Source of the DNA: Aptenodytes patagonicus
Taxonomy: Eukaryota > Chordata > Aves > Sphenisciformes > Spheniscidae
NCBI RefSeq assembly: GCF_965638725.1
Contig: NC_134949.1
Location: forward strand, 82,366,017 to 82,430,016
DNA length: 64,000 bases
Direction of reading: 5' to 3'
A model generated the notes under the pieces. It saw nothing but the letters and a program-made list of their open reading frames with translations. It searched no databases and was not told the DNA's origin. This document shows positions 8,901 to 60,378 of the stretch, piece after piece (positions within the stretch are counted from its first letter, which is position 1; each line of letters opens with the position of its first letter). A program made the translations under genes and the position numbers.

Positions 8901-11900
8901 TCTTGTTCAATATCTTTATCGATGATCTGGATGAGGGGATCGAGTGCACCCTCACTAAGTTTGCAGACGACACCAAGTTGGGTGGGAGTGTTGATCTGCT
9001 CGAGGGTAGGAAGGCTCTGCAGAGGGACCTGGACAGGCTGGATTGATGGGCCGAGGCCAATTGTATGAGGTTCAACAAGGCCAAGTGCCGGGCCCTGCAC
9101 TTCGGCCACAACAACCCCATGCAGCGCTACAGGCTTGGGGAAGAGTGGCTGGAAAGCTGCCTGGCGGAAACGGACCTGGGGGTGCTGGTTGACAGCCGGC
9201 TGAACATGAGCCGGCAGTGTGCCCAGGTGGCCAAGAAGGCCAATGGCACCCTGGCCTGTATCAGAAATACTGTGGCCAGCAGGAGTAGGGAAGTGATCGT
9301 CCCCCTGTACTTGGCACTGGTGAGGCCGCACCTCGAACACTGTGTTCAGTTTTGGGCCCCTCACTACAAGAAGGACGTCAGGGTGCTGGAGCGTGTCCAG
9401 AGAAGGGCAATGAAGCTGGTGAGGGGTCTGGAGAACAAGTCTGATGAGGAGCGGCTGAGGGAACTGGGGTTGTTTAGCCTGCAGAAAAGGAGGCTGAGGG
9501 GAGACCTCATCGCTCTCTCTAACTGCCTGAAAGGAGGTTGTAGTGAGGTGGGTGTCAGTCTCTTCTCCCAAGTAACTAGCAATAGGACGAGAGGAAACAG
9601 CCTCAAGTTGCGCCAGGGGAGATTTAGATTGGACATGAGGAAAAATTTCTTTACTGAAAGAGTGGTTAAACATTGGAACAGGCTGCCCAGGGAAGTGGTT
9701 GAGTCCCCATCCCTGGAGGTATTTAAAAGACGTGTAGATGAGGTGCTTAGGGACATGGTTTAGTGGGCCTGGTGGTGTTGGGTTGACGGTTGGACTTGAT
9801 GATCTTAGAGGTCTTTTCCAACCTTAATGATTCTATGATTCTATGATTCTATGATTCTATGATTCTATGATAATAGAAGAATGATTAAGAAAACCAGTCT
9901 CATAAATTGCAATGTTTGTGAGCTCTTCTTGCAGGTAGCTTTTTTTCCAGTGCTCAGTTGCTACTACAAATCACAGTAAATACGTGGTCAATTCCCAGTC
10001 CAACTTATCTGGAGCTGCCAATGGACCCTGTTATCAGCACCCTGCTCTGCCCACTCTATTTGGGTGCTGTGGATTAAAACAGGCACCCTGTTGGTGAGGA
10101 CACTGTCCCTGCTTATGGTGGGGTCAGTCTCTGCTCCTGGTTCACTCCCTCTCATGGAGTAGCCCTGACCTTGCTGCACCCTGACAAACCCATAGGAAAG
10201 AGCAGCAGAAAGAGATTGTTATGCAGAGTCACAGGAAGAAACGGTCATCACATACCACCCCAACCCCCCACAATGCCCATCATCTTTATGGAAGAATTTT
10301 GATGGATTGAGTGTAACCTGTGCTGAATATACAAAAAGTTGAAACCAGAGATGGGGGAGGATGGGGGTTTAATGTGTTTGATTGATTGTGGTGGTCTCTT
10401 TTTTCAATAACTGAATCGGTGATGAGAAGTTTGTGTTGTTTGGCAACAAATTCCTCAGAATTCCCTGGCTCAAGACTGTTCTGCCTGTGACTTCAGGCTC
10501 CTAGCCAGATTGTTGGGGTGTTGTCCTGGGAGGTGGAAGATGTGGGTATGAATCTCCTCAGCCTCAGAAGGGTGTTAAGCCCAAGCACATGCTTTAGCTC
10601 CGAAGCAGAAGCAGCAGGAGCTAGTCATTAGCATCAAGTAGAAAGACTGGGCCAAACATAGGGGAATGATTTTAGGCACCTAGTTGTAAGAAGGTGGCTT
10701 CAGACTGTAAAACCTCTTCTTACCTAGGCATACAGTTCAAGGCTGTTGGTTCTATCCCAAGGGTCTGACATCTTGATCTACTGGTAGAATTAATAAATAA
10801 ATAAAAATTATACTGCATTGATTTCCAAAGGTTCCAACTGTTTCCAAAACAGTTCAGGTTTTTTTCTGAAAACTGCTCAAAGGAGACTAAGTCACCTACA
10901 GAAGCAAGCTTTTTGAGATTGCTACCTAACCCCTCAATCTTCCGGATGCCTTCAGTAAACCTCTCCTGACACCCAGCCACTATGTGGTTCTCTTGAACTC
11001 TGTTCCTGAGTATGCCCTGCATTGGCCTTGTCTTAACTGAGAGCCAGCTGGTAAAGGCCTAAGATTCAGCAGCACTGTAAAAGAACAAGCCAAACGTGTG
11101 CTGCCAGGAGTAAAGGCAAGAAGGAGCCAATGGGGAAACACGTTTATCATGCTTACTGAAAAATAAATTCTGATTTCTGTGAATCTCTCGTATTCGGGAA
11201 GCTGTTTCACCACTTTTGATGGTGTTAACGAAGAAAAATAGGTTTGTGGTGGGCATCTTAATGATTTCTAGTTCTTCATTAATGGCAAATACCCGGGGCT
11301 GAAATGGCTTTAGAAAAAATAAGGCTGAAAGGGAAAAGAGATCCAGATAACACATCCTAGTCAAGGCTAGCAGCGCTTTTAGCACAGGACAGATCTTAGC
11401 CACGTTCTTATTATTTACTCAGTTACACAGCCTGTCACCCAATCCTGCTAATTCTTTCACTTCAACATACACAAGTGGCCGAGCATATTATTCAGCAGTT
11501 TTACTTCCAGCCCCAAATGTTTATCTCTTTGAAAATGGTGGTATGTATAAGGGGTACATACCTGTTCAAGAGAGAGATCTGTCCAAGTCATAATAAAACT
11601 GATCTATTGCTTTAATGAGCCGCTACGCTGACCAAAGATAAGCCAGCCAGCAGAGGGGGCAAAAGTCCCACTTTCTTCCCATAAGCAGTATTACTGGAGA
11701 GTGATACTCCAAAAAAAAGAAAACCAGAGCAAAGCGTTGAGACACTGAAACACAAGCCAGCCTTTGTCAAATGGAAAAGAGCAAGTTGATAAGGAGTTTA
11801 CAGCGTAAGTGTATTGCCAGCGTCCAACACTAGAAGAGTATAGGCATGGGAATATGCAAATCTTTAGCCCTTCCTTAACGCAGTAGCACTGCTTTCCATG

Positions 11901-29800: not shown

Positions 29801-31795
29801 AGTTATGTTCTTTCTAGCAGAACTGGCTCCAGATCAGAACAGACTCCAGTCCCTCTTGGATAGAAACTTCCCACAAGTTTGTACATGAGTTATGTGGTCT
29901 TTGCGGCATATGAAGGACAATGAAGGGACGCTGCATATCCAGGTCCCCCAGGCTACACAGATATCAGCTACATACTTGGAAGATTGGATTTGTTATGAAA
30001 ATAGTCATCATCATCTGATCAACTCTACATAAGTTACCCCAAACCCACAGATCTAACATGAGAAACTTTTTTTAAAATAAATTACAGCTTATTCTCATTA
30101 TAAAATTAATTATATTTTAGATTAGAACTTTATTGCTTTAACAATGTTTAACTTTAATGATACTTAATGTTGTATAGTATGTTCTTTCCAAACCAGAAAC
30201 TTGTTACATAAGTGAACACACCATGTAGTTATTGTGATAATTATTAGTACAAATATACTTAGGACAAAATGCTGGCCAAAAACTACGTTTAAAAGTTTTG
30301 CTTTCAGGCAATCTCAAAGGAAAAGCTTTTAAAAAGAGGTCAATTCACATATTCTTTCATTTAAGTTAGGAACACTTGTACTGTTAAAAAAAAAAGAAGA
30401 GTTTTCTGTTAGTAATACCAATATTTAGTCCAATTTTCTAGTATGGCAGGTGTGTGTGTATATATATAGATTTTTAATTTTTTTTTTTTTTTATTTAAAT
30501 GCCCACTGCTGAATGTAAGTACACATTAAAGGTCAAACTTAGTCTGAGGTAAAAGCAACACAGATGATGAAACAAATGCATTTTAGCAAAATTAGTAAGT
30601 CCTAACCTGAAATAGGCTTAAATCATGACTATTCACATATTTAAATCTACACAAATTACATCTGTTTAAGCCTTAGGAATTATTATATACTATAAGCATA
30701 GTCCTTGAAAGAGGCCCTATCCTTTTACTTGGTAAAATTTCATGAATGAAAAAAACCTTTTAAAAAATCCATATATGATTTTGAGGGGTGAAAGGAAGCA
30801 AATAGTAATAAGACCATCTATTTTATGTCAGATAGAAGCATTATGATTCATTCTTATAATTACCATATCTTTCTCTGGGCAGTTCCTGACTGCAGTAACT
30901 GATAATAGTTTTTCCAAAATGCAGTCAGGCCATAGAAAAGTTCATCTGAGACAAACAGAATAATTGCAAAACTCTGCATTTCTTCAGGATATATGCTAAT
31001 TCTATAATAAAAGCAAGGACTTTTGGCTCAGTTTACATTCACTATAGCCAGTAAAACTTCCTCTTGCCTCTGTGAGAGCACAATTGGGCCTTTTCTACAG
31101 CTAAGATGACAAATCATCATTCTTTTAAGCAGCATTCAAAATAGTAATTGAGGTCCTGCTAAACCTGACAGATACCATAAGCAGCTAAAAGAAAACAGTA
31201 GCAGCTGTATTAATATATTAACCACTGTTTTACAAGGGTAAATGGAAGCCTTAATTTCCTCCTTGCATGTACTACACACATGGCATAATGAGAGACTTTG
31301 TACTCATGTGTTCACAACTGTAAATTAATTCAAATTAGTAATGTTATGACTATATGTTTGTCCAACAAATTACTTGTTTTGGCACTTCAGCATGTGCAAA
31401 ATGGACTTATAAAAATGTGACATATCTGATCACAGCTGAACCTTCCACATCTCATGCTAAAAACTGCAGTGTCTGAAGCTGGAGCAATGTAAAGCAGCTA
31501 AGGCAGCAATAAAAACTGCCATGAGCATATAGGACTTCCCCTCAGAAATATCAAATATACAGTGTGCATCTTCAAAGACAAATATCAAGTGAAGAATAAA
31601 AAGCCCTCCTCTGGAAGTGTTAATGGATATAGCGGCTGATCCTTTGAGAAACTGGCTTCTCCATTGCTTTCAATGGGATTACTCATGCAACAGGTTTTCA
31701 GCCCAGGAGCTCAAGTACTATGATTTCTGGCTGATTAAGTGGACAGTTTCAGATTTTTCTTACACCAAAGATTATGTGAAAATGTAGGTACTTAC
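26849..31795. other. Presumed intron 1 of the KCNQ1-like gene; no accepted exon
   Basis: Includes a pyrimidine-rich stretch (27540-28200). Exon-like splice signals near 28550 and 29750 bound only segments of 9-25 bases. No Kv7 S1 coding block was found. Confidence 0.5.
30454..30495 (+). repeat. TG/TA repeat followed by poly-T
   Basis: TGTGTGTGTATATATATAGA and then a run of about 15 T. Simple repeat. Confidence 0.75.
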
Positions 31796-32178
31796 ACAGT
31801 AAAATGATAGATAAAACACTTCCATCCACTGGGCCTCTCCAGGAAGTTGTAGACATCTCTCTGCGTACTAGTTTTAGTTAAATAATGGCTATGGAAACAC
31901 TTTGTTGTACAGGCCCTGCGGACTTCACTTTCTGTCAAGGCTGCAGCCTTTGTGCCTTCCTCAGGGTTACGGGGAATCCCGGATCCATTATTCACCAGGG
32001 TTTCTGGATCCAGCGCCACAGAAGAATACTGCATATTGCTTAGGTTCCCCCTGACTTCCAGCAACGCTGCAGATTTCCTATTTCCATTCAGACTGCTAAG
32101 CTGGGAAGAGGAGCCTTGAACCTGTCCACAGTGGTTATACATCTGGTGCCCAACAGTTTCTCCGCTATCACAGGACAT
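31796..32178 (-). CDS. KCNQ1-like (Kv7.1-type) potassium channel, first coding exon only
   Basis: Voltage-gated K+ channel alpha subunit of the Kv7 family, N-terminal cytoplasmic part. The exon opens after the acceptor GTTGTTACAG (32181-32180), ATG at 32178, and encodes 127 codons plus two bases. The last 18 or so residues, [18 protein letters not shown], are nearly identical to the pre-S1 segment of KCNQ1; other Kv7 members differ here. The donor ACTGT|GTAAGT splits a valine codon after its second base, as at the end of KCNQ1 exon 1 (codon 129 in human, 128 here). Residues 1-105 do not match mammalian KCNQ1 apart from a possible VALDP/VSLDP similarity. S1-S6 and the pore are not in the window; I looked for an exon 2 with the FSVLSTIEQY block and found none. 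It could be the sole expressed start of a long gene, as KCNQ1 intron 1 is large, or an orphan remnant. Confidence 0.85.
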
Positions 32179-32179
32179 T

Positions 32180-33986
32180 CTGTAACAACGCACAAGTATT
32201 ACTAACCCTGATCAATATTTAAAATCATGAAGAAGGTACAGTATGTCCTGCCTGCCCAGGGTGTTCTCCAGCAGCTGATAAGATGACTTTCTGCGGTTAT
32301 CACGGAGCTTCTCTGTGACACAAGTGTGAGCTGTCAGCCTGTCACCTGCTGTCACCCACAGCCTCTGAAATTAAATCAGAAAAAAATGTATTGGACAATG
32401 ACACATGCTAGGCACCAGAAGTAACAGGAGGCCGGGAAAGGAAAGATGTTAAGACTTCTGTAGGAAGGAAGAAAATTACAATTCAAAGTTACATTTGTTA
32501 AGAAGGAAGCCTAAAACTATTTAAATCGTGCAACAGCAGCAGAGTTGTCTTGAGAGATGATCCTATGATATTATTTTAAGCTGAGCAGTTCTTGAAGTGT
32601 CCCGATTAGAAGGGGAACTGTGAAAATTTCCTGGAAGTTATAAACTTGCTGTTGCCTGAAACACACTAGATTGAGGTTTTGAACTTCAACATCTACACCT
32701 CAAGAGATCTTATCTAGGCTGTCAGTGCTACAGAAAGATTTTAAGACTTGAATAAATTATTTCAGTCACCTCATGGGATCTGATCTTGCAGTCCACAGTA
32801 CTCAGGAACAATTTTTCTCAAGTCTAAAAATGAGGATGTCATTAATGATAACTGTCACTAGGAGGTTAATATTGTTAGAAGGGAGAAGATCAAAGACTCC
32901 TGGCCTGATTCTTGATTTTCTTCAAGCCATTTAATGTTTGCTGATAACTTTGCTACTCTCAAGCAAGTACCTAGAGAAAACAGAATTAAAAATAAGACTC
33001 TTATAGATCAATATATATTTCATGGGGCAGACTTAAATTGCTGCTAATACATAGATACTTAGCAGCAATATTAATCATTTTGTGAGACTGAGAGCAGCTT
33101 TCTGAAGTGTCATTTTTTGTGCTGCCTCATTTCTTACATGCTACCATGAAGAGCTTCCTTATTTAAAATGCTTAGCTAAAATGAAAAAATGAAAATATGA
33201 TGAAAATATGAGAATATTAAAAGTATCATAAGAGGTGACTTTAACTTCAAAGCACTGCTAATGTTAATGTCAAAATTATGTCTGTAATGTCATATTGTAA
33301 TGTACTGTTATTCGCAATATAAATCCCACACACCTAGGAGTTGCAGCTGACTGCTCCGCTGTCAGAAGAGGCTCACACCCACATTTTGAGTTACTTTAGC
33401 CTCAGCAGAATAGAGTAATTTAGAGAGAGAATTTCAGCCTTTACCCCCTCTTTCTAAATAAAGCTTATTTTTTGGTGTTGCTTAAAGATCCTCATGTGTA
33501 GTGGATGAACTACCATTGTAGTACACCTGAACAGAGCCCTCTAAGTTATTCCACAAAATATTTACACGCAGTACTGGACTTGTTACAACATGCTCATTGC
33601 TTAACACTGTTCATGGTAAGGCAGACTGATGCATTTCTACATTAGTCCTATAGCAGATAGAGAAATACTTCCTTTCCCTCATCAGTTCTCTTAACACTGA
33701 AAAGCTGTAGGGACCAAACAATAAAGTTAAAACACAAAGACTTTCATCCCAGCCAATCTACAAGAACATAAGAAACACCTATCAGAAGTACACTCCCTCC
33801 GTATCATTCATTTTAGGGGGCTGAGGCTACCTAGACAAGTGCTTGTAGCAAAGGCTGGCTACCCAGCAGTTGCAAAGAGAGCCACCTGAAACACACTTGC
33901 TAGCCTGCTTAATCAAAACAGGAGATCCCACACAGCCAGACACAAAGCACAGAAAAACCTGAAACCAGCTGGCAAACAGTACCTAC
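32180..33986 (-). other. Intron between the non-coding and coding first exons of the KCNQ1-like gene
   Basis: Bounded by GTAGGT at its start and GTTGTTACAG at its end on the minus strand. No other feature seen. Confidence 0.55.
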
Positions 33987-34110
33987 CTTCTCTCATCACA
34001 TGTCCTTCTACTCCTTCTCGTTGCTGCTCCCTCAGCTCCACACAGCAGACTCCCTGGATAGGTGCAGGGGAAGGAGCTGCTGCCTGACTCTGCCCCCAGC
34101 TTATCAAGTC
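33987..34110 (-). other. Non-coding first exon of the KCNQ1-like gene (5' end approximate)
   Basis: Lies between the TATA-like element and the strong donor GAGAAG|GTAGGTAC. It carries two upstream ATGs: one is an immediate ATG-TGA (34001-33996). The second (33996) would read across the splice junction, out of frame, past the real start codon for about 34 codons. Both could lower translation of the main frame. Confidence 0.5.
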
Positions 34111-34135
34111 CCACCCTGAGCAAGGCAGGGTCCCT

Positions 34136-34157
34136 CCCTTTTATCTGCCTTATATGG
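34136..34157 (-). promoter_or_regulatory. CArG box plus TATA-like element upstream of the KCNQ1-like gene
   Basis: CCTTATATGG at 34148-34157 is an exact CC(A/T)6GG serum-response-factor site. Directly downstream on the minus strand, AGATAAAAGG at 34145-34136 is a TATA-like box. A start site near 34110 would give a first exon ending at the donor GAGAAG|GTAGGT (33987). CArG boxes are typical of muscle and immediate-early promoters. SRF control of this gene is an inference from position only. Confidence 0.5.
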
Positions 34158-46260: not shown

Positions 46261-46900
46261 TAAGATGGCGGAGGCACGACGCAGGAGCAGGGCACTTTCT
46301 GAGCACTATCCCTCGCCACTCCCCACTCCTCCCTCGCCCTCCGGCCCCCTCCCAAGGGCAGTAAGATCACTGCCGGCGCTTTCTCCCGCCCCGGGCGCCT
46401 CAGTCGGCTCCGCACCTCCCCTCGACGGCCCTGGCGCTCCCCGCTCCCCGCTTGTGGGCGGGGAACCGCGACTATTCGCCTTTCCAACTGGCTTGGCCCG
46501 CGCGGCTTCCGTCCTGCCGGGAGGTTAGGGGGGGGACTGCGCGCGGTAGGTCTCGAAGATGGCGCCCGTCAGTGTGGCGGTGGTGGCCGGTGCGGGTCAC
46601 TGGGCCGTGCTTTCCCGGTGCTGCGGGAGGGTCGTGGTGGCGCGTCTCTTCGGGGGCGCGGCTTACTCCTCCGTGCCTGCGGTGGACAGCAGGGAAGGCC
46701 AGCAGAGGCAAGGTGAGAGCGGTCCGGCCCGCTCTGAGGTGGTGGCGGGGGCAGGCGTGCAGCCGTCCGGGGGCGGGGGACTCGGGCTGCGCCCGGCTCC
46801 GGGCTGGGGTGGCCTGCGAGCGGGCGGGGGGCTCAGGCCCGTGTCCCTCCTCCCTTCCCGGCTCCAAGTGGCTCTGAAAAAGAGACTTTGTTTTGCAACT
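46170..46900. promoter_or_regulatory. CpG-island promoter, probably bidirectional (MRPS35 right, gene X left)
   Basis: The only sustained GC- and CpG-rich stretch in the window, without an obvious TATA box. It contains two YY1-type AAGATGGCG motifs, at 46262-46275 (followed by GAGGC) and at the MRPS35 start codon (46557 onward). Such motifs are common near the start sites of TATA-less mitochondrial-protein genes. On the minus strand, a sequence leading from this island reaches a good splice donor, CCCCT|GTAAGCG, with exon edge at 46061, which suggests a non-coding first exon of the leftward gene. Bidirectionality is inferred from gene arrangement. Confidence 0.75.
46559..46712 (+). CDS. MRPS35: MRPS35 exon 1
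   Basis: The start codon is at 46559. The exon encodes the presumed mitochondrial presequence (51 codons plus one base) and ends at the donor AAG|GTGAGA. The exon is GC-rich and lies within the CpG island. Confidence 0.88.
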
Positions 46901-49900
46901 GTTTGCTGGAGAGCTTTTGGTAAAAATAATAATAATAAAAAAAACTTTACGGCGTAGGATACAGATTTTAGCAGTGTAAATACTGTGAAGAGTCTGAAGA
47001 AAGAAGTGAGCAAATTGGTGCTTGCTAGACAGATTTTCAGCTCAGGATTATAGTGGTACAGTGGACTTGCAGTGCATTGCCTGGTTTTAGGTATTCCAAA
47101 TGAGAATCACTGTTTCCTAAGGGATGTGTGCTCATGTTAAACATTTGATGTCCTGCCTGGCCTCAAGCTGAGCTGTTCAGGCTGTTCCGAGTGCAAATGG
47201 AACACTTGGTCAGGGTTGTGCCAACAAGGCTGGGTGGGCATTTGTCATCTACAGATTCAGGAGCAGGCTAGGTTGCTGAAAGGGCCTTCAAGTGATGTCT
47301 GATATTGCAGCCCATGGCAGGAGTAAAAGGTGTCCTGACCCGAAATTGTAGATGTTTGTAACAGAAATAATAAGATTGGTATGAATGAAGCGTGTCTGTC
47401 TGTGAAAGCACCGCAAAAATGGCAGATCAGGGGATAAAAGAATGCTGTATATTAGCTGTTGCAGAGCCCCATATGTATTCTTCAGTTTAAATTTTTATAT
47501 AGCAAGAAGAGAAAGAACAGAATTAGGTCCATAAAATATGTAGATAAGACAAAAGAACTGTGAAATTCACAAGTTTTCCCGAGGCTTATGTGGGGTAAGG
47601 TTGTAAGATGAATGAGGCAAACAGAACCCAAACATCCACTTCTAAGTCCCATTCAGTGTTTTTTTGCTAAATGTACACTGTATCGTAATGTGGCAACAAT
47701 TAAAAAACAAACAAACCCCAAGCTCAAACAGGACACTTGAAAAATAAATGTCATCAGGTTCACCTTCATTTGTCTGACTGTTATAAAGGCCACGTTGGTT
47801 TGGTGTTGGTTTTTTTTTCGGGGGGGGGGGAGAGTTGAAAGTAATTAAATTAGAGTTTGAGGAGGGAGAGGAAATGAAGACAAGAAAGTGAAGATCTCTG
47901 TTTAGATTGAAAATCTAGTGGTATTTGGTATCTTCATGCATCCCAGGACTTTAGCCCTGAAGTCAGTTGGCTAAAAAGTTGAGCCAAATGGTGGCTCAGG
48001 ACTGCTAAAAGGGAGTAAACTCTTTCTGTTGCATCTTCTCTGGGACTTATCAATAAGCCAGATCAGCATGGTAAAATGGCAGAAAACAAACCCATCAGTT
48101 TGTTTCTCATCCCCAGCTCAGGAAGAAAAACAGTTCGATGTGCTAACTGTTTATACAGAGGTTAGATGAGCTTGAGAGTAGCACAGAACGGGGTGTGATG
48201 TGCTGTCAGAAGGAAGGGATGGAGCCATGGGATGCTCCTTTTAGTAGTAGTGAACTGTTAGGTTTAGCTGTCTTGTACTGCTGGTGGAGAGTGATTTGTG
48301 ACTTAACAGTTGTGAGGGAAAGAGAAAAGGAAGCACAGTTATGAAGGCAAAAGTGTACTTTCACTCATCTAATTTTTCTTTCCTCCTGCATCAAGCTGGA
48401 ATAAATGGTGCTAGCAAAAATGCGTTTAGGCATGTAAACACTAAATTATTGTTAACATGTTTCTAGGATAGACCCAGATGAAATGGCTTCCAAGCTTTTT
48501 TTTTATCTTAAGTTTCAAAAACTAAAGGAGCAATCTGCAGCATGAGTATGTGATCTTCCCCTTCTTCCATGTAAAGACTGGGAAATACAAGTGTGTATTG
48601 TCTTTGTAAAGGGAAAAAAGGCATACAGGATTATGCTGCTTTTTTTTTTTTCCCCCACAAAACCATATAATAGTTTGTATTGAAAAATGTTTCTTTTTCT
48701 TTCAGTTTCAACAAGGAGAAGAGGCAGGACACCGCCTTTTATAAGATCAGTAAGTACTGAAACTGTTTGCAGTTAACTCCGAGGTGTTTGAAAAAGTTTT
48801 CAAAGCTATATGTCTTAACAGGAACCCCTTCTGCGTTCAAAACCTGGTGAAACAATCCACTGTGACTATTCCAGAACCTGCACCTAGCTTCTTTAATCTC
48901 CCAGCTATTTTCAGTCTGTGTTGTCATAAAGGCAAAAACTTTAACAACAACAAGCTAACAGTTAGCTTGTATTGACACCATGTGCTGCAGGTCTTAAAAG
49001 TTGCATTTAAAATAAAAGCAGACATTTTAATGTTGTTTTCATTAAGAGTTTACAGGATTCGTAGTGGTTGCTTTCTGGCGTAATTAAAAAATCTGATACT
49101 GTGCATAAGAGAAATTGTTCTTGCACAGTAGAATTAAAACTGATATCTGAACACCTAATCACTGAGAATTTTCTTACTTATTTCACACATAAATTTCAAA
49201 AGTAGTATGTTATGTGTTATGATTTTTAAAGGCAAATAGTAAAGGTGGACCTGGCATGTATTAAATTTTTGTTTAACTTCCAAGAGCAGATTTAATGATA
49301 CACCAAAGCAGTCAGATCAGCTGACTGCATATGTCCATTTGTCTTTTACCCTTCTAAATTAAAAATTAAGGTTTTGGGGAAAGAAACAGTGACTTGATTT
49401 TTTTTTTTAAGACCATTTGTCTGAAACCTTGGTCAGTTATTGGAGGATATAAGCTATTTCTGCAATATAGTAATACATAGCTCCTATACTGGAATTTCTA
49501 TAGCAAGTAATTTCAGAGTTATTAATACCTATTTTTTTTAATATGAACTTGTTCAGACTTTCAGAATTCCAGAATTTTAAAACTCATTTTCTTGCCCCCC
49601 ACCAAATGCTTAGGCACTTTAGGAAATAGAGTTTGCAATTAAATACTGATTTCATTCCCCTTCCTCCCCCTGCTGATTTATCACAATGCAAGAAGATAGT
49701 AAGTTCTTCTTTCTAAACATTTTTGAAATAAAATGCAGTTGAAGATTGGGAAAGGCCTGCTACCCAAGCTTTGAGGGGCTATCTTTTAAAAATTCCTATA
49801 CAAATGAGTACTAACTTTTGATGTAAAGCTGTCTTGAAATTTCTAGCTGTGGGAATTTATTCCTGAAATAACTTGTTGTGTGTGTTGCTCCTGCTTTGTT

Positions 49901-52900
49901 TCACAAAACAGTGTATCTTCCATCAAACTTTTATAATTTTCAATTTATTAGCATGCACCTCCCAGAACTGAGAGGATGACTGTTGATCAGGACTGGAGCA
50001 GTGTTTATCCAACAGCAGCTGCATTTAAACCTGCCTCTGTGCCTCTCCCAATTCGAATGGGTTACCCAGTGAAGAGAGGAGTACCTCCGCCAAAAGAAGG
50101 CAACTTAGAACTTATAAAGGTAAGATGCATTCCATTAGTGTGTGATAACTTTTGAAATCATTATTCACTAAGACTGCACTGCTTTGATTGCAATATTTGT
50201 ATTGGATACTGTTTTCTGTTATTAAATAGGATAATATTCTATTTCATTTCTAAATTAAATGGTAACAAATACAAATGAACCAAATCAGGAGACATTTTTA
50301 GGATTATCATGCCTGTGACTTTTCTAATGGGGCTTAACTTAAGTCTTGCACTAAATCAGACTTGAGAAGAGTCTTCTTATCTGAATATTTTATTAAGCAT
50401 ATTGTACTACCTTAACAAATGTTAAAAGTGTAATCGGATTTCAGTAATGCCCCTTTATTTATGAACAAACAAAAAGCTATTATTTTAGTAACTCTTAATA
50501 TGTCTGTTTCAGATTCCCAATTTTTTACATCTTACTCCTCCTGCAATTAAGAAACACTGTGCAGCTCTTAAAGGTGAGGGGTTTTTTTGTTTTGTTGTTT
50601 TTTTTTTTTTCTTTTTTCTGTTTTTAAAAAACATCTCTCGGAGTTTTAAGACGATGCAAAATGTAACTGTGTTTGAAGTAGGTGAGACATGGTCCACCTC
50701 TGAAGCTGGTTATTTGTCAGGGTTTGGCTAGTATTGTATGCTTTCTTGTTGCTGCATTGAGTCGTACAGGTAGTAGGCAGATATGTCTTAAGAGGTTTTC
50801 AGCACACCAGTAAGACTTTAATTTTACCTTTCCATTAGGCCCTGCTTGTAAATTTATAGTTTAGTGTCTTAAGGAAGATGAGTGATGAATGTGATTCAGT
50901 TCTCAGAAGATTATCTGTGATTAAACGAGGGTTTAATCAGCAGCCGTTCTGGCATGCATTTTAAAAAACTGCTATTAATAAATGAAACCCTCTGTAAGAG
51001 CAAAGTCTGCTGGGGAGATAAAGGATCTAATGAAGACCAAGAGCGTCTCTGCCAGCCAGCAAGCCAATAAAGAGAACCTAATGAGGAGGTTAGCCCAAAA
51101 AGAAGTGGAGGCACAAGGGGACAGTGAGGAGATAGAATCATAGAATCATTTAGGTTGGAAAAGACTCTTAAGATCATCGAGTCCAAATGTTAACCGAACA
51201 CTGCCAAGTCCACCACTAAACCATGTCCCTAAGCACCACGTCTACGTGTCTTTTAAATACCTCCAGGGATGGTGACTCAGCCGCTTCCCTGGGCAGCCTG
51301 TTCCAATGCTTGACAACCCTTTCGGTGAAGAAATTTTTCCTAATATCCAATCTGAACCTTCCCTGGTGCAACTTGAAGCCATTTCCTCTCGTCCTGTCGC
51401 TTGTTACTCGGGAACAGAGATCGACACCCACTTCATTACAACCTCCTTTCAGGTAGTTGTAGAGAGCGATAAAGTCTCCCCTCAGTCTGTATGATAAGAG
51501 GTAAGAGGCCTGTCTTGAGTTGCCTGTATACAAATGCATGCAGCATAGGAAACAGGAGGAATTAGAAGTCTGAGGAGTCACAGAAATGCAGAGAGAAAGC
51601 TTACATGACTGAGGTGCAGGCAGGGATGATGCAGAGGAGGAGCTGACCTGTACCCAAAAGAACAGCTCAGATGCAGAGCTTTGCTATGAGATGTGTAGCA
51701 AGCTGGTTGAGAGTTTAAGAGTAGGGATCAGAGGAGAAGCTGAGAAGGTTGTGTTGGTGGACATCTGCCACAGACTACCTGGTGAAGAAGAGGAAGTGGA
51801 TGAACAGCTGAAAAAAGCCTCACAACTGCAAGCTTTGGTTTTCATGGGGAACTGCAGTCATCAACATCTGCTTGACAGGTGACAGGATGGGATGGAAGCA
51901 GTTTAGGAGATTTCTGGAGTGCGTTGCAGATAATTTCGTGATGAAGACATCAGATGCTGGACAAACTGTCTATGGGAAGGTGCTGTGTTGCATGTGCTAC
52001 TTGCAAGTATGCAAGAACTGGTTGGAGATGTCAAGGTTGCTGGCAGCCTTGGTTGTGAAAAGAAGATTGTGGAGTTTAAGATCTTGAGAGAAGTGAGGAA
52101 TGCAAGTAGTGTATTGAAGGCAATTTCTCGCTGCAGACGATCGATGAGTTGACTAGGAGGCATGCTCTCTTAGATTTGTTGTTCAGAAACGAGGAAGAAC
52201 TCGTCAAGTATGTGACGGTTAGGGGCATCCTTGCTAACAGTGTCCATGAAACTGTGGTGGTTAAAATCCTGAGAGAAGTGAGCAAGACAGACAGGGGAAC
52301 TAGAGCCTGGACTTCAGGAGAGTGATTTTGGTTTATTTGGGAATCTGCTTGGCAGATCTCACAGGGTACTCTCCTGGGGAGCAAAGTGGTCCACGAGAGC
52401 TGGTGGATGTTTAAGTTCAGCCTCCTTAAAAGAGCAAGAATGGTCCATTCCAGTGTACAGAAATTTGAGCAAGTATGGCAGAAGGACAGCATGGGTATGC
52501 ATGGAACTCTTGAGTGACCTGAAATGCAAAAGGAAGTACACAGAAAGTGGAAGCAGGTAAAGACTACCGGGAGGAACAGGAGATTTTTGCCTGACCATCT
52601 TCAAGAATGGCAAGAAAGAAGATGCAGGGAACTGCAGGTCAGCCAGCCTCACCACATTCCCTGGAAGATTGAGGCAAACCTTCCTGGAAGCCATTTCCAA
52701 GCATGTGAAAACATGCTTTATAACAACCTGGATAATGGTAGGGAGCACAACCTCAGCAGGTCTTCAGATAGTAATGAATTGGGGGGGAACAAGTGGTACA
52801 CTGGAGAGCAGAGCTGTCATTCAGAGGGATGTCAACGCACATGAAAAAATCCTCTGCAAGGACCCTCATGAAGTTAAACAAAGGCAACTGCAAAGTCCTG

Positions 52901-55900
52901 CATCTGGGATGGAATAACCCATGCAGCAGTACAGGTGGGTGGGATGGGGGGGTGGCAAACAGCTAGAAAGAAGCTATGCAGAAAAGGCCATTTGGAGACT
53001 GGTGGTTATTTGAAAGTTGAACATGAGTCATCAGTGTGCCCTTGTGGCAAGGAAGGCTAACCGCATACTGGGTTGTATTGATGAGAGTGTAGCCACCACG
53101 TTCAGGAAATTAATTCTTGCCCCTTTATTGAGTGTTGCATCCAGTTCTGGGGTCCCCAGTACAAGAAGGACGTGGACCTGTTAGAGGAGGGCCACACAAG
53201 TGACCAGAGGGCTGGAATACCTCTCCTGTGAAGAAGGGCTGAGAAAGTTGGGATTGTTCAGCCTGGAGAAGAGAAGGCTCTTAGGGGACCTTATTCACCT
53301 TTCAATATATAAAGGGGGCTTATATGAAAGATGAGGAGAGACTTTTCACCAGGGCCTGTAGTGACAGGACAAGGGGCAACGGTTTTAAACTGGAGGAGGC
53401 TAGATAATTAGATTGGACATAAGGAAAACATTTTTTTATGATGAGGGTGGTGAGACACTGTAAGAGCTTGCCCAGAGGAGCTGTGGATGCCCCATCATTG
53501 GAAGTATTCAGGGTCAGGTTGGATGGGCCTTTGAGCAGCCCAATCTAGTGAAAGATGTCCCTGCCCGTGGCAGGGTGGTTGGACGAGGTGATCTTTGAAG
53601 GTCGCTTCCAACCCAAACCATTCTATGACTCTATTTGGCAGTTGTGAGACTACATCTGGAGTATTGTATCCTGTTTTGGGGAACTCAGTACAAAGAAAGA
53701 TATTGAAATACTGGAGCAAGTCTAACAGAGACCCTGCCGTTATCTAAATGAGTATGGTTTCTATAAATAGTACTTTTAAAAAGGTATATTGCAATAAATT
53801 TGGAAAAAAAACCCAACCAACAGGTATTACTTGGATTGTTTTCTCTTTATTATACAGATTTCTGCACTGAATGGCCAAGTGCTTTGGACAGTGATGAGAA
53901 ATGTGAACGGCATTTTCCTATTGAAATTGAAACAGTAGATTATGTTTCTGCAGGGACATCTATTCGTAATCCCAAAGCAAGAGTGGTGACTTTAAGAGTA
54001 AGTAGTATTTTTGGTAAACAGCCTTTGTTTCAAAAATTCAAATGTTTGGCTTTCTTTTAAAAACATGTGCAGGTATGATATGTTGTAAGGAAATGAGAGA
54101 AGTGGTTTACTGAATGTCTGAATAAAAAGCAGTGGATTTCCTTAAGTATATTGCAGCATGTTAGAACTGAGGTTGTGAGGTTATGGATATGTAGTTATAA
54201 ATGAAGACTAAGCTCCGATATAAACAAAATAGTGTACCTTCTGAAGAATCTACTTATAGAAAAGGCAGTAAGTGCCTTTGTACTCAGTGTCTTGCTTAGA
54301 CTCTCTCATTGCTAATTTATAGACCCTAGAAGTGCACAAGTGTTGAAAGCTAGGTCATATGAATGCGGCACTATTAGTAAGTATTGAGTTGGCAGACCTC
54401 CAGGTATCAGTGTGTATGCAGTAGGGGCAGCAGCCTTCTGATCATAGGGTCATGCGTTACTTGAGGTTGAAAGGGAGCTCAGGAGTTTTCCAGTCTGACC
54501 TTCTGCTCAAAGTAAGGTAGGTATGAGATCAGACGAGGTTACTTGGAACTTTATCCAGTTGGGTCTTGAAAACCTTCAGGGCTGGAGATAGCACAACCTC
54601 TATGGTCAACCCGTTCCTGCTTGCCTGTCTTCATGGTAGTGAAGTTAAGATTGTGCTGTGGCTTTTGAACATGCCTTTTGAGATGAGATTTGAGCCTATC
54701 TGAAGAGCAGCAGCAGTGATGGGGTCAGTGATAGTTGTGTTCTTACTCTGTCAGTATAGAAGTTAAAATACTGCATGGTACCACATGCTCATAACACCTA
54801 TACAATATCTAATCATGGCAACTTTGAACAGTAGTAGTTCATTTTGTCTGTAGGAGTCTCCACTTTCCCTTTATGTTGTAAAACCTTTTGGGTTGAAATT
54901 TAATTTGGTCTGTGTGCCGGTTTTGGCTGGGGTAGACAGTCTGTCATTGATGTAAATATGCATTTCACACCACTGTTAGCAGTAACTTCACCATCCCCTT
55001 GTAGTCATTACATACTAGAGTTTAGCCTTTTGTCTCCTAATTCAGATACGTGGTCAAGAGCAAGTTTTCACAAATTTGTATGCATTAGAAATAAAAGGAT
55101 ATAGAGGGTATCTATGAGAATAGAAGCCTCTGACTTCATGCTGGGTTGCGACTGTGTGCAGGAGGAGGCACACATTGGACCCCCCTTGCTCCCATATTCA
55201 CTTGTCTCGGATGGAGTAATACTGACATTTGCAGGTCAGTACTGAGCATGGTGTCACGGGTAGGGGGAAGAGCACAGCTGCTCAAACAGCCTTGAGTCTC
55301 CTCCCAGTAAAAACAGCAGGTGGTGAGTGTATGTAAATTTCCTGCTTTCTAAATCATGTAAAACATTGAGATATAAATGTCTTCTCTTAGATGTGGCTGT
55401 TGAGATACAAGCTGTTAGACTAGGGGTCAGCTATGCTGCAGTGGAGAGGATAATTCAAAATGGTACAAAAATAGAACAATTATCCACATGCTTTTTCAGT
55501 TACTGGTGTTCTGATCCCAGACTTCATTAATAAATGCTTTCTCTGATTAATCCTCTGACAACAAAATCTGCCTAGGGAGGGGGAAGAGAAGATTTAAAGG
55601 TGAAAACAGATGGCACTGGGTCAGATAGCGGTTAAGTTTGTATCAGTGAGAGAGCATTTACTGTGCGTTGTGTTACAGACGATGATAAACTCTCTGGTGG
55701 ATCTTCATGATAAGATTTCCTTTTTTAAATATTGCTTAAAAGTTAAACCTTTCTAATCTTAATTAAAAAATTATGCCTTTCTTCTACCAGGTATCATACT
55801 GGAGATGCTAATTTTTCATCTCTTGTAGCCTAATGCCAGTGTTTCTTGTCACTAAATTTATCCTAGTCTATTCCCAAGTGGAATTGTCCACATTGTGCCA

Positions 55901-58900
55901 GACAACATAGTACCACAGGATGTAAAATGAGATTTTTCTTTTTTTAAATCAACTGCTGTTCTTTGTGGAGCTCTAACTTTTCTAAAATTCAACATAAAAT
56001 AGTCTGCAGCATTCCAGCTAACAATTATAAGCTGTCCAATTGCTATCCCATTTTGAAGCAAGTAGCCATTAAATATTTGTCACTTTAAAGTGACTTTGGA
56101 TTAATAAGAACATCTTTATTGTGATCCTGTAATATAGGAAACAGACCAGATAGCTTTTTAGTTTCTATAGGAAAAGCAAGTCATGTGGAATAAAATCATA
56201 GCTCTCTAACAGTAAATTTTGAATGACCACACTGTATGAAGGCAGCATGATACAACTATGATAATGCCATCCTTTTAAGACAGTGCAAAAAGTACAATGA
56301 AATTGTTTTGCATTGTTGGTTAAAGCAAGCTAATGCTGGACACCTGGGCTGGAGTATCCCATTAAGTTCAGACAGTCATGGTTATAAAGTGCTTACATGC
56401 ACTAGCAGTTGTATGCTTGCCAGAGAGTTGTGTCCAAAACCCTTTAGAGTTTGGAGCATTCTTTCTTTCTGTGAGTGTTAGAGAAGGACAGTGTTAAGAA
56501 AATGTGTTTTACAAAAAGGTGTTTCTCATCAATTTGGGTGAGCATTGCCAGGCAGCAGTGAGGGTAGGCCGTTCTGTAAGGGAAGGTGATCCGGGGGCAG
56601 TAAGGCAGGCAGGGGCAGTGACCTCCCCAAAAAGGGTGCAGCTACTACCTGAGCAAGGTGAGCAGGACAGGCCTGGTAACGGTAACCTTGTCCATCCAAC
56701 AGCCCAGTAATCACCTGAAAAGTTCATAATGATAAGGCGAGTTTGAGGTCAAAGCGGGAAGAGAAGTCAGTGGATCAGGATCAGGTCTGGTGACAGTAAC
56801 TAGGATCAGTCAATGGTCTGGTGATTGTCAAGCCAGTCCATAGCGATGCAGTAGGTGAGGTCAAGCCGGGAAGTCAAGGATGTATGTCGGGGTTGGGTCA
56901 GTGTGGGCCATGGCTAGGCACAGACATAGCTGCGTTGTGGCTCAGGCAGAGACCAAGGCTGAGTGCCTCAGCTTAGATGCAGCTTCTCAGTAAAGCTGGG
57001 GCAGGCCCATCTTCTCATAGCTCGTTTTTTTTTGTCACCACTGATTGAAGGCTATGTGGCTGCACTGTATGGAAGGGCACTGTATGTAAGGAAGCCTTGA
57101 CCCTTAGAAGGGGTTGCTGTGTGCGTAGGGAGCTTTTTTTTTTCAGCTTGACCATTGCCTTAAAGACTGGATGCACCTAATAGGTCTGCTAGAATTAGAC
57201 TTGACAAAATGTGAGCTAGGGAGCAAAGCTAGGTGAGCTCCTGCTTACCAATATTACAGGCATGCATAGTAATGAGCATGTAATTCCTTAAAAAGGAGAC
57301 ATTTTTCATATAATCTGTGGAGTAGTGAATATTAGGGGTTTTTTTCAAGATTAGAAGTTCCAGTATTGAAACACTGTTGTCTCCTCCCTTGTCACATTTA
57401 GGTTTAGTTCTTCAGTTTTCTATTTTTAGTAGTAGGGTTTTTTCTTTTCAGGTAGTACTTTTTTCCCTGATATTTATTTGAGCTTCTAATTTCTTTTAGT
57501 CTTTCAACTTTTGTTAGTTTTTCTGATGCAGGTTTCTTGATTTTTGAACAGTTCTTTAGTACAGCAATGACACAGTAGAAAGAACACAGAGGAAAAACAA
57601 ACAGTGGGCAAACGAGTAAGAGACTGCTATTATGTCTTCATCTTTTTAATATTCCTCAGCAACTCCCACTTAATAGAAACTTATGTTTCCAACACCATAT
57701 ATCTTTAGACTGTTAAGGTTCACAGCCGCCTTATTTGCTATTGTGTAAACAGATAGCTAAAACCAGCTTGCTTTACTTTTCATACTTCTTTATTGCATAT
57801 AGAAACTAGCTTCAGACTAACTTTGTAGAGGTTTTTTTTAAATAAGTACTAGTTATTTGTTGTATATCTTATGTTTGTGGGTTTTCTGGTATTGAAACAG
57901 AAGACAAGCCATTCACACTATTGTTTGATGAATTATGTGAGATCGGACAGTTCTGGTCCATTATATTGTTATCTGTGCGCATCTTTGCATACTTCTATTA
58001 ATCTCCCAGTAATGACTTTAAGAATACTGATTTGATGTCTCTTGAACTGACATCTTTCCTCCTCTTTTGGATGCTTGTCATAAATATCTTTGATATATCT
58101 TGGTATTAAACTTACTGATCTGTATTTGAAAAAAAAAAAATCTTAAAGATTTATTTTTCCGTATGAAGTACACGTGAATATGAAATACAGCTACAAACTA
58201 AACTGACAGCTCTTTTTTCCTCTGAAAAAAAGTTTGAGTAGAAATATTCTCCCCCAGCCCCTCTGGTATTTGGATAAAGAAATTTATTGTTTGAATATTC
58301 AGATTATACTTGCCTTGTGTTAAGACTTCTGACGTGATACAATCAGAAGAAATTCTGCAAATGCATACTTAATAGCTATCCTTTTAATTCTTGATAAAAG
58401 ATGTGCCTAACTATCTCAAAATATTTTCAGGGTGCAGAGATTTGATTTATCCAAGTAATTAAAGGTGTTTTCTCTTGTACTTGAAGGTTAAACTTTCTCA
58501 CCTGAATTTGGATGACCATGCAAAGAAGAAGCTCATTAAACTTGTAGGAGAACGGTACTGTAAGGATACAGATATGCTCACAATTACAATGGACAGGTAC
58601 GGTTACAAGAAGGAAAAAAATGCCTGTAGCAATGGTCACAGTATAGAAAGGGCTGGGTGTCTTCCAGTAATATCAATTATTGTCTTAGTAAATTATTATA
58701 TTTTTAAGGCTAAAATATGACTTGAGAAAAATAGATAAGATACTCCTGTTATTAACTGTTAAAATTGTAATGGACAAATCACATAAGGTCAAACCTAATA
58801 TATGTTAAATATTGCTAGTTATTGAAGCTCTGTATTTAGAAGTCTCATTTGTTATTTTAAAGTAGTTGTCATGTTTCCCAAATGGGTTCTGTTAGTTTTA

Positions 58901-60378
58901 ACAATGGTCTGAAGAGTTTCAGGCAAGAAAAATGGGGATATCGGTGACCAGACATTTCTCAATGTTTTGGTGTTCTAGATATAAACAAATCACTAGTTAT
59001 TTACAGTTATGTTCAGAAGGCTGCATGGGAGAAATGTGTTCTCTGTGTTCAATTCTGAAGACTGTAAGAGAATACATATGTATTCCTAAATTCACAATAC
59101 ACTTTAATTCACAGCTGCTTTCAGTGGTAGGAAAAACATTATTGGTAGTCTTTTCTGTTTGCATGTTTTTATTAGAATTCATTTTCCCCTCTTAAATTTC
59201 CTGTCCTTTGGTAGGAAATACTGTTTTATTTCTACATAAAGTAAGTACAAATTGGATAAAATTGTGCATATCTTTTTCGACAAGACTTGGAAATCTGGGT
59301 AGTTTACTGGGACCACTTGTGCTACCAACAGTTTTCATTTCCCTGGCAAGACTTATTCTGTGGCTAAAACATCAGTATAGCTGAAAGGAGCTTACCCTCT
59401 AAGGCATCTGTGAATGGTCTCATGCTGTGTTCCAGAAGAAACTCTTAATGTGCCTGCTGATATTTCACTTTATTTTTAGTAAATTCTAAGGCCTAAGCTC
59501 TGAGCGGTATCCATTTCTTTAATACAGGATTTTCCAGGCTGTTTCACTAGGAAAGAAGTAAGAGTCAAAAGCTTGAGTCCTTTTTAAATTTATTTGCTAG
59601 AATAGTCATAGTCCGTAGTCATTCAGATGAGTGTTTTTAGAGTGCCTCAGATGCAGTCTCGCACGATTCAATTTGTTCCGCATCAAAAAGCGGGGGGTGA
59701 AGGAGCCTGCAGGAAGAGGTGAGTGTGAGAAAGAGACAGGAGGTTATGGGTGATCAGCATGAGGAAGAGATTAATTTGCAGGACTGTGTCTTATCACAAC
59801 AAATTTTACTGGTGATCCTGTTTGGACTTACAGCTACATTGACTTAAACTTTTCGTGTTGAATTGTTGGCTAGATCTTCTGTTCTGAACTGTATTTCATG
59901 GCCGTTTTCACCAGTCATCCTCCTCCCTTCAGGTCTGGAGGAAAAAACCAAAAATTAAGATTTTAAGGGAGTTCAGACTAAAGTATGTTTGATTCCACTT
60001 TGGCACAGAGGACAAAGAAGTTTTTAATGTTTCCTGAAGTTCTGTAAATTCTTGCATTATGTACATTTTCCTGCTGACCTGCAGATGCCCGTTCTTCCAT
60101 GTCCTTAATACTTATGCTTTCATGATGTTGTTCTTGATTGTGTGTAATTCAGAAACGCATGTGAATCAAACACACATTTCCCTAAGATTCCCTACATTAC
60201 AAGTAATGGTAAGTTACCATTACATCGATGGTAAGCTTAACATTTTATTCAAAAGGATATTACAGTGGCTTGATTTCAAAAAGACTAGCTTTGTTTATGA
60301 ATTTTCAGGTGTCCACTAAGAAGACAGAACTACGATTATGGCATACACCTCCTCACAGTTTTGTACCATGAATCTTGG
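46559..60378 (+). CDS. MRPS35: MRPS35 (mS35), mitochondrial ribosomal small-subunit protein, exons 1-7, 3'-incomplete
   Basis: Structural protein of the mitochondrial 28S small ribosomal subunit (mS35). Seven exons: 46559-46712, 48706-48749, 49952-50119, 50513-50573, 53858-53997, 58487-58596 and 60309-60378. All have GT/AG borders and together give exactly 249 codons with no stop. The match to vertebrate MRPS35 is strong from exon 3 onward, for example [41 protein letters not shown] and LYHESW. The first ~50 residues are Ala/Val/Arg-rich with almost no acidic residues, as expected of a mitochondrial targeting peptide, and are poorly conserved. The start ATG at 46559 lies in the CpG island in a GAAGATGGCG context. 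Human MRPS35 is about 323 residues, so roughly 75 C-terminal residues are missing. I found no last exon between 60379 and 64000, so it should lie to the right. Confidence 0.96.
48706..48749 (+). CDS. MRPS35: MRPS35 exon 2
   Basis: A 44-base exon between a pyrimidine-rich TTTCTTTCAG acceptor and an ATCA|GTAAGT donor. It enters in phase 1 and leaves in phase 0, joining exons 1 and 3 in frame. The peptide is basic (STRRRGR), so the targeting region probably continues here. Confidence 0.82.
49952..50119 (+). CDS. MRPS35: MRPS35 exon 3
   Basis: Fifty-six codons in phase 0, from HAPPRTERM to EGNLELIK. Start of the strongly conserved mS35 core: the VDQDW motif and MGYPVKRGV match mammalian MRPS35 closely. 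Acceptor TTATTAG, donor AAAG|GTAAGA. Confidence 0.97.
50513..50573 (+). CDS. MRPS35: MRPS35 exon 4
   Basis: A 61-base exon encoding [20 protein letters not shown] plus the first base of the next codon. Acceptor TGTTTCAG, donor AAAG|GTGAGG. Nearly identical to the mammalian protein over this stretch. Confidence 0.97.
51132..51489 (-). mobile_element. CR1 3' fragment, minus strand, in MRPS35 intron 4
   Basis: Reads on the minus strand as the C-terminal end of CR1 ORF2 ([28 protein letters not shown]) followed by the 3' UTR and an ATTCTATG end. It has few breaks, so it is younger than the neighbouring plus-strand CR1. Confidence 0.93.
51490..53639 (+). mobile_element. Old, degraded CR1 in MRPS35 intron 4
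   Basis: Starts with a diverged match to the CR1 ORF2 beginning (near 51515) and keeps recognisable blocks across the element, including TTCTGGGGTCCCCAGTACAAG near 53145-53165. It ends in CCATTCTATGACTCTAT. Stops and indels occur throughout. The opposite-strand CR1 abuts its left end. The sequence at 50985-51131 may be more of the same element. Confidence 0.8.
53640..53750 (+). mobile_element. CR1 fragment (second copy)
   Basis: GTTGTGAGACTACATCTGGA followed by a GTACAAAGAAAGATATTG-type stretch repeats an internal CR1 ORF2 region already seen upstream. It is therefore a separate short insertion or duplication. Confidence 0.6.
53858..53997 (+). CDS. MRPS35: MRPS35 exon 5
   Basis: A 140-base exon that starts in phase 1 and encodes [16 protein letters not shown] through ARVVTLR, with conserved HFPIEI in the middle. 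Donor AAGA|GTAAGT. It follows a CR1-filled intron of about 3.3 kb. Confidence 0.97.
54436..54660 (-). mobile_element. CR1 3' fragment, minus strand, in MRPS35 intron 5
   Basis: Begins near ATCATAGGGTCATG, then GGTTGAAAGGGAGCTC and CCTTCTGCTCAAAG, the reverse-orientation CR1 3' UTR pattern, through the ORF2 end. Moderately diverged. Confidence 0.8.
54913..54945 (+). mobile_element. Possible LTR start fragment
   Basis: TGTGCCGGTTTTGGCTGGGG matches the first ~20 bases of the ERV LTR family above, then the likeness stops. It could be a truncated LTR or chance. Confidence 0.3.
56669..56885 (+). repeat. Two diverged copies of a ~114-base tandem unit in MRPS35 intron 5
   Basis: A unit starting AGG(C/T)CTGGT(A/G)AC-GTAAC and containing G-GGTCAA-GC-GGGAAG recurs from 56669 and from 56783. 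The copies have drifted; further copies may precede 56669. Confidence 0.5.
58487..58596 (+). CDS. MRPS35: MRPS35 exon 6
   Basis: A 110-base exon encoding [18 protein letters not shown] and then LVGERYC, the most conserved block of mS35. It leaves in phase 2 at ACAG|GTACGG. Confidence 0.97.
60309..60378 (+). CDS. MRPS35: MRPS35 exon 7
   Basis: A 70-base exon encoding [20 protein letters not shown] and then ESW. Acceptor TTTTCAG, donor TTGG|GTAAGC. It ends in phase 0 after codon 249. The next exon should begin near the conserved NTEEWE region and is outside the window. Confidence 0.96.

Follow-up and report, generated by a model that had tools for sequence, protein, structure and literature searches.

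KCNQ1L, a probable second Kv7.1-type gene of jawed vertebrates, beside MRPS35 in Aptenodytes patagonicus

KCNQ1L among the described Kv7 genes

A second Kv7.1-type gene was described in zebra finch by Lovell, Carleton & Mello (2013, BMC Genomics 14:470; PMC3711925), who named it KCNQ1L. The available portions of their article report counterparts in chicken, lizard, frog and fish, the flanking genes MRPS35 and CDKN1B, and absence in mammals (mouse and human). They also give a finch cDNA clone for the gene (FE721111) and no brain signal, a finch model that is partial and spans gaps, and no chicken model because of gaps. The duplication is said there to have 'likely occurred in fish', and the main text does not use the words 'whole genome duplication'. 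The gene whose first coding exon we analysed, in a window of 64 kb (the whole stretch of DNA under analysis) from Aptenodytes patagonicus, has in common with the published gene, as far as those portions describe it, its MRPS35 neighbour, its presence in birds, its standing as a second Kv7.1-type gene and its absence in mouse and human. It is another bird's copy of an already-described gene, and the novelty implied by a sequence-only reading of this DNA did not hold, the gene having been known as KCNQ1L since 2013; the names of the listed exon matches indicate that it is annotated as KCNQ1-like in many birds. To this, our analysis adds a tree with fish KCNQ1 proteins that favours an origin before the cartilaginous fishes split off, polarised residue differences, a contrast of rates in birds, and a confusion of names in fishes.

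Two zebrafish genes bear on the same question. Lovell et al. (PMC3711925, in part) identify fish KCNQ1L with ENSDARG00000088397, the chromosome 25 'kcnq1' for which the available text of Wu et al. 2014 (PMC4016485) reports no transcript. Primers for a zebrafish Kv7.1b gene, kcnq1b, were used for RT-PCR on 2-day embryos and the products were cloned, according to the accessible part of PMC5659376. Because the forward primer given there codes CFLYHFL, as found in the KCNQ1L proteins of pike and saury (P0117, P0121), kcnq1b is probably KCNQ1L, a name that does not occur in that text. One zebrafish Kv7.1 transcript was used in PMC12756865, as far as its available portion indicates. A literature search of partial coverage, judged mostly from listings, found only Lovell et al. 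2013 on KCNQ1L or its origin; the available parts of PMC10991444 and PMC2483723 added nothing on the gene, and PMC2427030 makes no mention of CDKN1B or of paralog or duplication terms.

KCNQ1 (Kv7.1) and KCNQ1L are alike in the VYNFLERP motif, the S4 segment, the selectivity filter, the TTL of S5 and the KCNE3-facing residues of S1, and unlike in their N-termini. The M-channel subunits KCNQ2-5 share the Kv7 architecture with KCNQ1L, but carry TAW in S5, where KCNQ1L has TTL, and a different assembly domain (PMC2597720, in the part available). The KCNQ1-like protein of Calonectris borealis scored 801 bits against solved KCNQ1 and about 470 bits or less against KCNQ2-5 chains. These scores, together with the TTL in S5, ruled out membership of KCNQ2-5.

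The first coding exon and its surroundings

The first coding exon of KCNQ1L occupies 31796..32179 on the minus strand, as delimited by its open reading frame, its splice sites, a match to KCNQ1 in the PDB and whole-exon orthologues. A single untranslated base precedes the ATG (32178-32176), from which the frame is open to 31796, giving 383 coding bases, or 127 codons plus 2 bases; with the split valine codon of the phase-2 donor included, the exon codes for 128 residues, comprising the cytoplasmic N-terminus and the entry to S1. The donor GTAAGT (31790..31795, minus strand), read from the sequence, follows ...TTTACTGT, and the junction reads GTAAGTAC / GTAAGTACC from 31795 downward. The intact KCNQ1-type exon was thus present as it had been described beforehand. 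Human KCNQ1 exon 1, which we take to hold 386 coding bases, presumably ends in the same donor phase. At its 3' end the exon carries the KCNQ1 S1-entry motif, of the type VYNFLERP[TS]GWKCF.YHF, and its final 28-31 residues align with KCNQ1 chains of solved structure in the PDB (best E 1.5e-8). The N-terminus had been called quite different from that of KCNQ1, and in our alignment it does differ from KCNQ1 N-termini and aligns with the KCNQ1-like family. Chance could be excluded as the source of the open frame because the whole exon matches KCNQ1-like proteins of other birds, the best listed match being Calonectris borealis "KCNQ1-like" (94% identical across the whole exon, E 1.2e-72). A Pfam search with the exon alone returned 0 families, and an Rfam search of the 64-kb window at gathering scores returned 0 matches.

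Directly before the A-ATG, at 32180..32189 on the minus strand, stands the splice acceptor-like sequence GTTGTTACAG, read from the sequence; since this acceptor-like TTGTTACAG stops one base short of the ATG, a putative non-coding first exon may lie upstream. No coding exon was found in 32180-34157. Consensus sites mark a candidate 5' non-coding exon and promoter at 33987..34157 (minus strand), with a TATA-like CATATAAGG near 34155-34147 and a donor-like GTAGGTA after 33987, and these sites could belong to the 5' non-coding exon of KCNQ1L. Splicing of this candidate to 32179 would bring with it short upstream ATGs, one of which opens a frame that overlaps the main KCNQ1L start, out of frame.

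When the 64-kb window was searched by tblastn with human KCNQ1, exon 1 alone was matched, the nine other matches having E values of at least 1.2, and no further KCNQ1 exon was found in 1-31795, the 31.8 kb to the left of exon 1. Exons 2 onward, if present, therefore lie to the left of the window. KCNQ1 genes typically have a long first intron. Also to the left of exon 1, long reverse-transcriptase-like open reading frames at 6964-9871 on the plus strand are followed by a (ATGATTCT)n tail; we take this to be a CR1-type LINE of birds, and it presumably sits in KCNQ1L intron 1.

MRPS35 was located on the plus strand at 46559..60378, by tblastn with human MRPS35 together with the list of open reading frames. 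Five plus-strand, exon-sized matches (49958-50122, 50510-50575, 53857-54000, about 58457-58597 and about 60283-60378) bear out the earlier statement that this gene adjoins the KCNQ1-like exon. Its candidate start codon at 46559 comes from the list of open reading frames, the first exon lying outside the tblastn matches, and the CpG observed/expected ratio around it is 0.79 (46300-46900). The two genes are divergent neighbours, arranged head to head with start codons about 14.4 kb apart, and KCNQ1L is transcribed leftwards, away from MRPS35. Within the 64-kb window there was no convincing match to PTHLH or to CDKN1B (best E 0.25); CDKN1B would sit beyond the left edge. Inside MRPS35, at 51219-51683 on the minus strand, there is a second, shorter fragment with protein letters like those of the element at 6964-9871.

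Relatives and age of the duplication

The exon was searched against 5.8 billion proteins, giving 373 candidates, 138 of them at E <= 1, and the best 120 of these 138 were listed. The listed relatives come from birds, Alligator, turtles, Sphenodon (tuatara), lizards, snakes, a caecilian, newts and frogs, and, among fishes, from coelacanth, ray-finned fishes, sharks, rays and a chimaera; the protein P0090 matches two Callorhinchus entries without a difference, over 352 and 388 residues. The idea that the gene was kept in birds was therefore correct, but retention is not specific to birds. Its proposed absence from the human side also stood, as there is no mammal name among the best 120 of the 138 relatives, and Lovell et al. 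report absence in mouse and human in the available part of their article (PMC3711925). Of the 120 listed relatives, 115 have S at residue 214 and 112 have L at residue 378, the rest being unmatched or having another letter. Identity to the window exon is 77-79% in emu and ostrich vs 63-66% in songbirds (Passer, Prinia, Aphelocoma, Serinus), and 46-47% in the snakes Naja, Thamnophis and Ahaetulla, values that point to faster change of KCNQ1L exon 1 in the songbird (P0051, P0052, P0055, P0056) and snake (P0094-P0096) lines.

Searches for KCNQ1 itself used a Xenopus KCNQ1 protein (6611 proteins at E <= 1e-20, best 120 listed) and a masked KCNQ1 stretch (1735 proteins at E <= 1e-10, best 120 listed). 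In several species both genes were recovered, on contigs of differing size: Falco biarmicus (P0014/P0153), Rissa tridactyla (P0007/P0181), Rhinatrema (P0072/P0145) and gar (P0099/P0245), and likewise Tyto alba, Varanus, Pelodytes, Pseudophryne and Lissotriton.

These data bear on two other accounts of the exon. Beyond the close resemblance of its last 30 residues to KCNQ1, nothing was found to favour the locus being the only KCNQ1 of the species, moved next to MRPS35. To this account we give next to no credence, because birds, lizards, amphibians and gar have both genes in the same species, KCNQ1 and KCNQ1L form two supported groups in trees, and the N-terminus of the exon fits the KCNQ1-like family. 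The proposal that birds retain, next to MRPS35, a second Kv7.1 gene that human lacks is upheld. Alternatively, the remainder of KCNQ1L could be lost or broken in this bird, with the exon surviving alone or as part of a pseudogene. Such decay would be compatible with the 31.8 kb to its left, where no other KCNQ1 exon was matched, with the faster evolution of the gene in birds, and with the codon at the position of human G108, which is AGA, arginine, in place of a glycine that is nearly invariant elsewhere (among the 120 listed relatives, G in 112 and R in 2, Indicator and Melanerpes, with 6 unmatched by the motif); polymorphism, convergent change or relaxed constraint are suggested as explanations of this arginine. 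Loss within birds is also conceivable in view of the galliforms (chicken, quail, turkey), none of which was seen among the 120 listed relatives, where ducks, geese and ratites are found; their absence from the listing reflects either loss or concealment within 90% clusters. Against a remnant stand the 127 open codons, the intact donor and the acceptor-like site, together with the model lengths in the eleven closest listed relatives, 609-658 residues in all but P0010 (436), and a long first intron is in any case the rule in KCNQ1. We consider a remnant very improbable, and place at roughly 0.93 the probability that the window exon opens the coding sequence of KCNQ1L, a second Kv7.1-type gene of jawed vertebrates that encodes a channel subunit.

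For the age of the duplication we built trees whose rows were hand-chosen proteins of relatives, the window exon being aligned separately, outside the trees. A 70-protein tree held 46 of the 120 listed KCNQ1L and 22 of the 120 listed KCNQ1 proteins, with human KCNQ1 and KCNQ2, and with KCNQ2 as outgroup the KCNQ1 and KCNQ1L groups were modestly supported (SH-aLRT 84 and 58). Removal of three fast teleosts, of the Amia and Sphenodon KCNQ1L and of seven extra birds left a 58-protein tree, again with the KCNQ2 outgroup, that separated KCNQ1 from KCNQ1L at 100/100. An ostracod and fish KCNQ1 were added because the KCNQ2-only outgroup gave a long branch and left the root undecided. The resulting 42-protein tree comprised 25 KCNQ1L proteins, 16 KCNQ1 proteins (including gar, alligator gar and bowfin) and the ostracod KCNQ1 as outgroup, on a branch that is itself long (about 1.7); KCNQ1 formed one group (100/99), as did KCNQ1L including six cartilaginous fishes (95/99). 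A repeat with the same rows plus two cartilaginous fishes (eight in total), N-termini removed and aligned from VYNFLERP onward, gave the two groups at 99/98. Each group includes ray-finned fishes and tetrapods in the 42-protein and repeat trees, and by these protein trees the duplication clearly predates the divergence of ray-finned from lobe-finned fishes.

Whether it also preceded the cartilaginous-fish split is less firmly indicated. A duplication later than 2R, after that split and before ray-finned and lobe-finned fishes parted, was compatible with the data under the KCNQ2 outgroup (58-protein tree, AU p 0.239) and borderline in the ostracod repeat (AU p 0.051); no cartilaginous-fish KCNQ1 appeared among the best 120 matches of each search, and the phrase of Lovell et al., in the part of PMC3711925 available, is readable in this sense. 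Cartilaginous fishes, on the other hand, fall inside KCNQ1L in the best 70-, 58- and 42-protein trees, and the later date was weakly rejected in the last (AU p 0.031). The N-terminal motif YS.V.L...VNNGSGIP argues in the same direction, since the shark Chiloscyllium carries it in our alignment along with gar, Polypterus, pike, coelacanth and the window exon; the motif has decayed in Anolis, snakes and sparrow, and Narcine lacks its first half. We regard the later date as unlikely, and an origin before the cartilaginous-fish split as probable, favoured but not settled. A 2R ohnolog origin, as had been proposed, fits the trees best, but the part of the proposal that depends on cartilaginous fishes is held up by placements of moderate strength. 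The duplication would then belong to one of the two genome doublings of early vertebrates, an assignment proposed from trees of jawed-vertebrate proteins and an outgroup, in which cartilaginous fishes are represented only by the proteins that group with KCNQ1L. The gene pairs that we assume to link 11p15 and 12p agree with such an origin, as does the pairing of CDKN1C, which we take to lie beside KCNQ1, with CDKN1B beside KCNQ1L.

Channel residues, rates and proposed function

Residues that serve Kv7.1 channels were compared in the relatives' proteins, the window holding exon 1 only. In 46 KCNQ1L orthologues the S4 residues R228, R231, Q234, R237, H240 and R243 and the filter T312-D317 (TIGYGD) are identical throughout (46/46). 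S5 reads TTL, not the retigabine TAW, in all 45 orthologues with letters there, a distinction drawn in the available part of PMC2597720. Of the seven KCNE3-facing S1 residues listed in the accessible portion of PMC9671499, six are present in 46/46 and the seventh, I138, in 43/46. At 23 positions 13 tetrapod KCNQ1 proteins are separated from 25 KCNQ1L proteins (each letter in at least 85%), and here the ostracod KCNQ1 agrees with KCNQ1L at 10, with KCNQ1 at 4 and with neither of them at 9. Gar KCNQ1 retains S214, where tetrapod KCNQ1 has C214. Judged from the states of this one outgroup, C214 and some other distinctive residues of tetrapod KCNQ1 therefore look like changes of KCNQ1's own.

Among seven birds of the 70-protein tree, KCNQ1L divergence exceeded that of KCNQ1 in 21/21 pairs, with means of 0.185 vs 0.056 (3.3 times); without the long Indicator branch the ratio was 2.8 times, in 15/15 pairs. 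This faster evolution could reflect relaxed constraint. On the strength of the kept working residues and the bird rate contrast, KCNQ1L would be expected to be voltage-gated and KCNE-responsive, under looser constraint than KCNQ1.

In the mechanism that we propose, exon 1 would be spliced to exons 2 onward to encode a pore-forming potassium-channel subunit, four of which would assemble via the C-terminal domain. The S4 helix would sense voltage and the TIGYGD filter would pass potassium, with calmodulin on the IQ helix, and single-span KCNE proteins could dock on S1. Intact downstream exons in this bird, as well as expression, assembly, conduction and KCNE regulation, are predicted from the relatives. 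A more far-reaching reading, which we advance tentatively and rate at somewhat below even odds, is that KCNQ1L may be a working, KCNE-regulated Kv7.1 channel, closer than KCNQ1 to the invertebrate KCNQ1 state, that would co-assemble with KCNQ1 and share or divide IKs and epithelial roles with it in non-mammalian jawed vertebrates. Mammals, having lost KCNQ1L, would then possess just one Kv7.1 gene and no backup for KCNQ1-dependent heart rhythm and hearing.

If KCNQ1L conducts, animals used as models of long-QT may have a second source of slow potassium current that is absent in humans. Studies of Kv7.1 in birds, reptiles and fishes have two genes to reckon with, which database names blur. The KCNQ1L proteins of gar (P0099) and of sharks (P0086, P0088, P0091, P0104) are publicly named KCNQ1, those of rays (P0113, P0115, P0119) are named KCNQ1-like, and the true KCNQ1 of gar (P0245) is named KCNQ1.1.
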